50,226 nt of DNA, taken from contig CABYGR010000003.1 of NCBI GenBank assembly GCA_902518595.1, positions 1 to 50,226 on the forward strand, written 5' to 3'. The notes under the pieces are model-generated. The model was not told the DNA's origin. It saw only the letters and a program-made list of their open reading frames with translations, and searched no databases. Both the position numbers and the translations under genes were made by a program. This DNA comes from an uncultured Pelagibacteraceae bacterium (lineage in GTDB: Bacteria > Pseudomonadota > Alphaproteobacteria > Pelagibacterales > Pelagibacteraceae). Shown piece by piece: positions 6,848 through 35,248 of this stretch (the first letter of the stretch is position 1; the number at the start of each line of letters is the position of its first letter).

Positions 6848-8005
6848 AATTTTTTTAGTCTGTTTTTTTATTAATTCTACAGCTGGCTGATCAAAAGGAT
6901 TTATTTTCATTGCTCTACCTAGAAGTATTGTTTCGAGAATAAAAAAAGTAAATAATTCACCTAAAGTCTCTTCATCTCTACTGTTAATAATAAAACTTCT
7001 AAAAGGCACTTTCTTTTGCTTAAAAACTCTCTCTGTAGAAAGAAATTGAGAGTAGGAAATCTCGTTTACACTTTTATTTTCAAGGTATGAATGTGTGTCG
7101 AGTAAACCTCTATTTTTAATCTTATTCGTATTTTTTTCTTTGACAAAAAAAAATGTAAAAAAATGATTTTTATTTCCATCTAAATAATACTGCATCAAGC
7201 TGTGATTGTCTTTAGGCATTGATGATATTATTGGTAATATCCCTTTACTTTTTTTACCTAAGCTTTCGGCAACTAATTGCTGGTACCAATTAAATAAATC
7301 ATTTGATTTATCATCATAATTTAAAATTATTGAATTAGTTTTTTTTTTATTAACTAAGTCAAAAATGTTTGTAACATTTTGTATTAATGAACTTATAAAA
7401 TATTTATTATTAATTAATTTGTTTAATCTTCTAAATTTTTCTGGTTTAAATCCCATTAATTGAGCTGGTAACATTCCAACTTCTGAAAGCACTGAATATC
7501 TACCACCAATAAAGTTATTATGGTGTATAATTTCAGATTTTAATTTTTGAGCTAATTCCATTAAATAGCTTTTTTTGTTTTCAGTTATAAAAACGTTTGT
7601 ATTTTTTTTGTTAATTAAAATATTTGAATTTGAAATTGTTTCTAATGTATTTCCTGATTTAGAGATAATTAATGTTAATTTTTTTTTATTATCACTGTGT
7701 AATGGAATATTTGAAAAATTATCAACAAATGTAAATTTCTTATTTTTTGGATTTAAAAATTTATATATTGCTTTTGTACCTAGAATAGATCCTCCCATTC
7801 CAATTAACAAAATACTATTTATCTTTTTTAATTTTTTAACAATTTTTTTTGAGAATGTATCTTTATAACTTTTATCTAAAGAAAGTATTACTTCATTTTT
7901 TTCTTTAATTAAATTTTTATAAATATCAGAGATTTGCTTTTTTTTATTAAAGTTTTTTTTTTTTAAATCAAATTTTTTAAACTTTATATTTTTTCCAAAC
8001 ATCAA
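6824..8005 (-). CDS. pgi: Glucose-6-phosphate isomerase
   Basis: 393 aa; ILLIGMGGSILGTKAIY, ISKSGNTLET, GGRYSVLSEVGMLPA, FDQPAVELIK. Confidence 0.88.
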   Translation of the reverse strand: MMFGKNIKFKKFDLKKKNFNKKKQISDIYKNLIKEKNEVILSLDKSYKDTFSKKIVKKLKKINSILLIGMGGSILGTKAIYKFLNPKNKKFTFVDNFSNIPLHSDNKKKLTLIISKSGNTLETISNSNILINKKNTNVFITENKKSYLMELAQKLKSEIIHHNNFIGGRYSVLSEVGMLPAQLMGFKPEKFRRLNKLINNKYFISSLIQNVTNIFDLVNKKKTNSIILNYDDKSNDLFNWYQQLVAESLGKKSKGILPIISSMPKDNHSLMQYYLDGNKNHFFTFFFVKEKNTNKIKNRGLLDTHSYLENKSVNEISYSQFLSTERVFKQKKVPFRSFIINSRDEETLGELFTFFILETILLGRAMKINPFDQPAVELIKKQTKKILISKKYS

Positions 8006-34350: not shown

Positions 34351-34378
34351 CTTGAAAACTTTAAATTAATTACCATAT
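34351..34378 (+). promoter_or_regulatory. Candidate heat-shock (RpoH-type) promoter upstream of hsp20
   Basis: CTTGAAA (34351-34357), 15-nt spacer, CCATAT (34373-34378); matches the groES upstream arrangement. Confidence 0.65.
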
Positions 34379-34385
34379 GTGTGGG

Positions 34386-34435
34386 GTAAGTCGCCTTATG
34401 GGGCTTGCAAAAAATAAACTTGCTTAACAAAGGAG
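34386..34435 (+). promoter_or_regulatory. Candidate ROSE-like RNA thermometer in the hsp20 5' leader
   Basis: Hairpin GTAAGTC(G)CC-TTAT-GGGGCTTGC (34386-34408), then CTTGCT (34419-34424) facing the SD AGGAG (34431-34435) with an unpaired G, as in the ROSE U(U/C)GCU/AGGA element. Confidence 0.6.
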
Positions 34436-34441
34436 AATATT

Positions 34442-34888
34442 ATGACAAGTAAAGATCTATCTATATTTAACTCTCTAAGACCTTTCTCAATTGGATTTGA
34501 TGATATGTTTGACCAATTTGAGAATATGCTTGGTAATGGTGCTTTGACGATGCAGTCAAACTATCCACCATACAATATCAGAAAAACTGGCAAGGACAAT
34601 TATGCAATAGAAGTTGCTTTAGCAGGTTTTAATAAAAAAGATGTTGAAGTTGAGTTTGAAGATAATTTATTAACTGTAAGAACCAAACAAATTGATAAAT
34701 CTGATGACAATAATGTTGATGGTGAAATTATCCACAAAGGTATATCTCAAAGACAATTTGCAAGATCATTTACTATTGCTGATGATGTAAAAGTCAATGA
34801 TGCTGAACTTAAAGATGGTCTTTTAACAATATCTTGTGAAAGAATTGTCCCAGAGCATAAAAAGAAAAAATTTATTCAAATTAAATAA
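34442..34888 (+). CDS. Small heat shock protein, Hsp20/IbpA family
   Basis: 148 aa; NYAIEVALAGFNKKDVEVEFEDNLLTV, alpha-crystallin domain, KDGLLTISCERIVPE. Confidence 0.93.
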   Translation: MTSKDLSIFNSLRPFSIGFDDMFDQFENMLGNGALTMQSNYPPYNIRKTGKDNYAIEVALAGFNKKDVEVEFEDNLLTVRTKQIDKSDDNNVDGEIIHKGISQRQFARSFTIADDVKVNDAELKDGLLTISCERIVPEHKKKKFIQIK

Positions 34889-34902: not shown

Positions 34903-34924
34903 TTGTGGGGATTATTCCCCACAA
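34903..34924 (+). terminator. Hairpin downstream of hsp20, possible terminator
   Basis: TTGTGGGG-ATTATT-CCCCACAA; weak T-tract afterwards. Confidence 0.6.
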
Positions 34925-34945: not shown

Positions 34946-35248
34946 CTAAATACATCCACTAGAAGTAAAGCTGATTATAATATTGTCTTGATTTACTTCA
35001 AACTTTCTTTCACAAGATATTCCGTATTTTTTTGATTTAAAAACAATAATTTTATTTCCTTTTTCACTAATGAAATCTTCATTGGGTTTTCCTAGCTCCA
35101 TTTTTAATTCATTAATTTCTTTTCCAACAAATTTTCCATACTTCAGATTTTCTTTTTCAGCAACAGCATCGGATTTTTCTTTTATTGTTTGACAACCCAC
35201 TAGAATAAAAGAAGCTAATATAAAAAGGATAAACTTTCTAAATTTCAT
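34946..35248 (-). CDS. Hypothetical lipoprotein
   Basis: 100 aa; lipobox LVGC; SmpA-like GKEINELKMELGKPNEDF. Confidence 0.65.
   Translation of the reverse strand: MKFRKFILFILASFILVGCQTIKEKSDAVAEKENLKYGKFVGKEINELKMELGKPNEDFISEKGNKIIVFKSKKYGISCERKFEVNQDNIIISFTSSGCI

Follow-up and report, generated by a model that had tools for sequence, protein, structure and literature searches.

The leader of the hsp20 gene in SAR11 bacteria (Pelagibacteraceae) is, in our judgement, likely to be a short two-hairpin RNA thermometer of the ROSE-like type. Comparison of leader sequences indicates that a ROSE-like element at this position is real and SAR11-wide, and by analogy with proven elements it is very probably thermosensory. 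We analysed a stretch of 50,226 nucleotides of a SAR11 genome (the window), in which the leader occupies about 34384–34441, directly upstream of the hsp20 open reading frame. A preliminary description of the locus had laid out a promoter, a leader with the hairpin GTAAGTC-G-CC/TTAT/GGGGCTTGC and the ATG, and every part that it described was found in the sequence:

34351–34357, + strand: −35 box CTTGAAA of a heat-shock promoter (RpoH, sigma-32 type), from conservation in relatives
34372–34378, + strand: −10 box of that promoter, ACCATAT; the commonest form among relatives is CCCATAT
34386–34408, + strand: hairpin I, GTAAGTC-G-CC / TTAT loop / GGGGCTTGC, nine pairs with G34393 bulged, from covariation
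34419–34425, + strand: anti-Shine-Dalgarno CUUGCUU, containing the ROSE motif U(U/C)GCU as UUGCU at 34420–34424
34422, + strand: G34422, the motif G opposite the Shine-Dalgarno (SD) sequence, within the anti-SD
34426–34429, + strand: loop AACA of hairpin II, variable in length among relatives
34430–34435, + strand: AAGGAG, the SD side of hairpin II (SD AGGAG at 34431–34435), from the invariance of GGAG and RNAalifold pairing
34442, + strand: ATG of hsp20, a start codon lying outside hairpin II
34442–34888, + strand: hsp20, encoding a small heat-shock protein (sHSP; Hsp20/alpha-crystallin, 148 aa), Pfam PF00011 HSP20, E 7.1e-17, residues 48–148

Conservation and pairing in the hsp20 leader

Leaders were gathered upstream of hsp20 from Pelagibacter and sister genera, 155 from Pelagibacteraceae in total. 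Nearly every Pelagibacter genome with an hsp20 match has just one. One genome (G098) holds two equal-scoring hsp20 copies on one contig (C13:1764-2207 and 7158-7601), each preceded by the leader element; the pair may reflect duplication during assembly. The promoter is sigma-32-like, unlike the sigma-70 type sought by the consensus scan, and rpoH was found in the window's genome with a score above the curated cut-off. TTGAA is present in the −35 box of 152 of the 155 relatives and CTTGAA in 127. Both boxes could be located in 145 relatives, of which 138 have the 14-nt spacing between TTGAAA and the −10-like box that is seen in the window; from this spacing, transcription would start at about 34384–34386. 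Downstream, a terminator-like hairpin (TTGTGGGGATTATTCCCCACAA, + strand, 34903–34924) lies between hsp20 and a convergent minus-strand gene (34946–35248) and possibly serves both genes as a two-way terminator.

The motifs of the leader are far better conserved than their surroundings. CTTGCT and GGAG were unchanged in 127/127 leaders, and CT[TC]GCT followed by GGAG was present in 155/155 once sister genera were included. CTTGCT, GGAG and the hairpin I GCC each had a mean pairwise identity of 1.000; the corresponding values were 0.576 at four-fold sites of hsp20, 0.565 immediately 5′ of hairpin I and 0.599 for the promoter spacer. An 11-base block, AACTTGCTTAA, was invariant in the 52-sequence alignment. 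The preliminary description had named lack of conservation of UUGCU and AGGAG in relatives as what would speak against its reading; the motifs proved to be conserved in all 155 leaders, and hairpin I covaries. Variation within the core motif is confined to U to C changes, seen in genus g308 and in a sister family (f2), by which a U·G pair becomes C-G. The sister genera retain the element, g308 having CUCGCU, the other permitted U(U/C)GCU form.

Hairpin I is supported by compensatory change. Counted on an ordinary sequence alignment of 52 distinct leaders, five of its nine pairs show two-sided changes and 97.2% of cells are paired; examples are A-U/U-A at columns 5-23, G-C/A-U at 7-21 and C-G/U-A at 9-19. 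Its covariation score of 0.280 was matched by none of 500 shuffles, and sliding the arms gave at most 0.086. Two leaders of genus g182 (L227 and L228), read by eye, have U-A in place of the inner C-G pair. G34393, bulged in the hairpin I structure, is invariant. A 10-nt, A-rich linker joins hairpin I to CUUGCUU.

The pairing of CUUGCU with the AGGAG SD, also put forward in the preliminary description, is supported in that CTTGCT and GGAG are invariant in the 127 leaders and RNAalifold predicts the pairing. On a structure-blind anchored alignment, the program paired CUU-G-CU with AGGAGG at an energy of −8.43; column shuffles averaged −3.15 (sd 2.38), and the shuffle fraction was 0.032. The same description had left the motif G unpaired; one register allows this, but RNAalifold favours a register in which it faces a G of the SD (G·G). 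No position of the SD/anti-SD core varies on both sides among the leaders, hence there is no core covariation; the ribosome constrains the SD, so that the anti-SD core opposite it is unable to covary. We regard the pairing of U(U/C)GCU with the SD in SAR11 hsp20 leaders as supported by this sequence comparison.

Change does occur at the edges of hairpin II. Most Pelagibacter leaders read A-CUUGCU-U, and the U pairs with the A preceding the SD. Others read C-CUUGCU-A or U-CUUGCU-A; they lose this top pair and gain instead a pair at the bottom, with the G that follows GGAG. The flanks accordingly fall into two classes (p0 A with u7 T, 112 leaders; p0 pyrimidine with u7 other than T, 41 leaders; two exceptions), and at least one of the two SD-flanking pairs is present in 153/155 leaders. 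In leaders of the CCUUGCU type, CCUU can also pair with AAGG, which likewise hides the SD. On the hsp20 tree either flank group requires eight changes, of which at least 3–5 are forced by supported branches. A sign test for the swap, restricted to supported branches, had just four independent pairs to work with, of which three were opposite, and stayed below significance; taken alone on strictly supported branches, the swap of flanking pairs is suggestive.

Kinship with known ROSE elements

The preliminary description had likened the leader to the ROSE elements of rhizobial and enterobacterial sHSP genes. The ROSE-type character stood, but the closest relative is the short ROSE_3 element of Pseudomonas ibpA rather than the long rhizobial and enterobacterial elements. 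When the ROSE covariance models were run as that description had proposed, only Rfam ROSE_3 (RF02523) aligned with the window leader over its full length and in register with the AUG, at 17.3 bits; the gathering cut-off is 43 bits, and the best SAR11 leader reached 26.4 bits. With scores below that cut-off, the leader lies outside RF02523 by Rfam's rule, though it is most like this family. RF00435 and the other Rfam ROSE families gave no match to the window up to E 10. In whole-genome searches with ROSE_3, the hsp20 leader ranked first in two SAR11 genomes, G648 with 19.5 bits and G643 with 26.4 bits (E 0.00135), and in the window's own genome it scored 17.3 bits against 15.5 bits for the best match listed elsewhere. 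A covariance model built in this analysis (R1) found one site per Pelagibacter genome, almost always at hsp20. Three extra R1 matches (in G136, G090 and G191), in or beside coding sequence and including a terminator-like hairpin, were set down to chance. Among other alphaproteobacterial sHSP leaders, three with clear UUGCU/AGGAGG (L182, L183 and L185) scored only 27–29 bits with Rfam ROSE, for which the cut-off is 45, so the current Rfam models under-detect ROSE elements.

The short two-hairpin ROSE-like element of Pseudomonas ibpA is an experimentally proven thermometer, in which hairpin II melts and is sufficient alone (PMC3669281). With this element (RF02523) the SAR11 leader shares a length of about 60 nt, two hairpins, a sigma-32 promoter and an sHSP gene. 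In hairpin I both have a bulged G directly 5′ of CC/GG, a feature of Rfam ROSE_3 and of Pseudomonas-type leaders alike, and both have CUUGCU or CUCGCU facing AGGAG and a start codon outside the hairpin. Leaders matched by ROSE_3 in family f59, probably Pseudomonas to judge from PMC3669281, have the anatomy seen in the window (GGGAU-G-CC...GGGUCCC, then ACUUGCUGA...UCAGGAGA, then AUG). The SAR11 version differs in that hairpin I is richer in A+T and has a 4-nt loop, and in that hairpin II lacks a G-C clamp and an extended upper stem; energy modelling makes it far weaker. Horizontal transfer from Pseudomonas was considered but found no support: the sHSP tree, which has long branches, does not group SAR11 Hsp20 with the proteins of ROSE_3 genomes, so that a recent transfer is not indicated.

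The rhizobial and alphaproteobacterial ROSE element (RF00435) also sets U(U/C)GCU against the SD, in the 3′ hairpin of the leader of an sHSP gene. With 94 positions RF00435 is longer, it leaves the window unmatched, and three to four hairpins are found in its classical members (PMC3669281). ROSE elements usually act on sHSP genes (PMC4166951). Three features of the ROSE-like class (PMC3669281) are found in the SAR11 leader, namely position in the 5′ UTR of an sHSP gene, U(U/C)GCU opposite the SD in an imperfectly paired 3′-proximal hairpin, and two to four hairpins with a stable one at the 5′ end, SAR11 having two. The class is further marked by an SD held in sufficiently stable pairing in the cold, for which the energy values given below are no higher than those of shuffles, and by translation or ribosome binding that depends on temperature. 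The SAR11 element is arguably a weakened subtype of this class.

Other sHSP leaders place the motif similarly. Those of Alphaproteobacteria elsewhere have UUGCU before AGGAGG. In sister family f2, of the same order, sHSP leaders carry UAAUCGCUUAAGGAGGAUUA and resemble those of SAR11 in their motif, UCGCU, which stands immediately 5′ of AAGGAGG; unlike in SAR11, hairpin I is another one that lacks the bulged-G GCC signature, and UUUAAUC/GAUUAAA lengthens the SD hairpin. The combination of UCGCU, UUUAAUC/GAUUAAA around AAGGAGG and an unrelated 5′ hairpin was seen in leaders L165, L167, L168, L169, L172 and L178, and the f2 leaders apparently represent a second thermometer design within the same order. 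Outside the order, one sHSP leader (L176, GTATTGCCTAATAAGGGATAC...ATCTTGCTTAAACAAAGGAGATAAAA, from genome G181) is SAR11-like, and the sHSP protein of that genome groups with SAR11 Hsp20.

Energy modelling and rival readings

Thermodynamic modelling of single leaders was less telling. At 20 °C the SD was no more costly to open than in shuffled leaders: the cost was 1.67 kcal/mol in the window against 2.91 for shuffles, with a fraction of 0.88 of shuffles at or above the window value and a mean fraction of 0.68 over 25 family members. In minimum-energy folds at 15 °C the SD pairs were held in just 17 of 102 members. SD accessibility was measured as the probability that all five SD bases are open; the mean unpaired probability of these bases proved misleading, as it counts partial pairing as open. 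With 18 nt of coding sequence included, the genus median was 0.066 at 5 °C and had risen to 0.378 by 30 °C, and leaders of the ROSE_3 type and of other Alphaproteobacteria had values of 0.012 and 0.009, respectively, at 37 °C. The window leader stayed flat at about 0.5 with +18 nt and rose from 0.014 to 0.136 between 5 and 30 °C with +30 nt, so its energy result depends on the coding length included. Only five genes formed the control set from the window, those with a recognisable SD, which are too few for a firm comparison.

These calculations would make the stability of SAR11 hairpin II marginal. Because standard parameters lack the non-canonical pairs of ROSE elements, the model is unable to decide on this hairpin. 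Similar modelling by Shah and Gilchrist could not separate ordinary mRNAs from those of E. coli ibpA and rpoH (PMC2896394), and since the method failed there on proven thermometers, a negative energy result carries little weight. We set single-sequence energy aside as proof of a thermometer, since it did no better than shuffles, and take the modelling as neutral to mildly negative evidence on that reading.

Unremarkable single-sequence energy, together with an Rfam match that is weak taken alone, is also what might be expected if an A+T-rich leader held a functionless, fortuitous complement to its SD. Invariance in 155 leaders and the covariation of hairpin I contradict this reading, which we consider very improbable. 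The same weakness of hairpin II by standard energies, equal to that of shuffles, would fit a leader in which hairpin I protects the 5′ end of the transcript and CUUGCUUAA is the target of a trans-acting RNA or of another protein, the SD not being meaningfully hidden; conservation of the CUUGCU core without two-sided change points the same way. Against it, the motif stays opposite the SD, the edge changes swap pairs on the SD side, and distant lineages whose hairpin I sequences are quite different have the motif at the equivalent place ahead of the SD of their sHSP genes, so that this explanation too appears improbable.

Protein binding offers another account, in which the leader mainly binds Hsp20, which represses its own translation until drawn off by unfolded proteins; temperature would then act indirectly, and the RNA fold would be kept for protein binding. 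IbpA of E. coli and other gamma-proteobacteria represses itself through a thermometer-bearing 5′ UTR and needs R93 and Y34 to do so (PMC10474464). SAR11 Hsp20 has an equivalent of R93 (R104) in 155/155 sequences and of Y34 (the tyrosine of YPPYN) in 154/155, but these residues are widespread in proteobacterial IbpA and hence unspecific, the position of K98, required in E. coli, is S or T, and conservation of an SD-pairing motif needs no protein to explain it. We find self-repression unlikely as the main role of the leader. It is compatible with a thermometer acting alongside, and since the R93 and Y34 equivalents are conserved, binding of Hsp20 to its own leader is possible as a second layer.

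A probable ROSE-like thermometer in SAR11

As a thermometer, the leader would work in the following way. RpoH would transcribe hsp20 from the promoter at 34351–34378, and hairpin I, whose folding is shown by covariation, may act in the nascent leader as a stable scaffold and insulator. Judging from the conserved complementarity, CUUGCUU would pair with AAGGAG in a cool cell, the motif G being either bulged or opposite an SD G, and would hinder 30S binding. Warming would melt the weak hairpin II and free the SD, and Hsp20 could then be made immediately from existing as well as new mRNA; this switch from cold-off to warm-on translation is drawn from the proven Pseudomonas elements. As SAR11 hairpin II is much weaker than its Pseudomonas and other alphaproteobacterial counterparts, a lower opening range is expected, and the modelling hints at roughly 15–35 °C, suited to a marine organism. 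A bolder proposal, which we hold only tentatively and think somewhat doubtful, is that of a cold-tuned ROSE subclass whose weakened SD hairpin switches at sea temperatures of about 10–30 °C, so that Hsp20 tracks seasonal and diel warming beyond heat shock and the trade of flanking pairs keeps the melting point constant.

The SAR11 element is apparently previously unreported. The literature searched, mostly open-access, contained no account of an RNA thermometer, ROSE or otherwise, in SAR11, and prior notice elsewhere is possible. The two surveys of structured RNAs that include Pelagibacter leave a heat-shock leader unnamed in their main text (PMC2704228, PMC2864571), and a study of iron mentions thermometers in general terms only.

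SAR11 bacteria rank among the ocean's most abundant cells and possess very few regulators. At their present cut-offs, the Rfam ROSE models overlook this entire major lineage, and its more than 100 natural leader variants form a series for measuring how the melting point of a thermometer evolves. If the thermometer reading is right, the element would be among the few post-transcriptional controls known in the streamlined SAR11 genomes, and a universal, protein-free switch on the sole small heat-shock gene of these bacteria would tie chaperone synthesis directly to the temperature of the sea.
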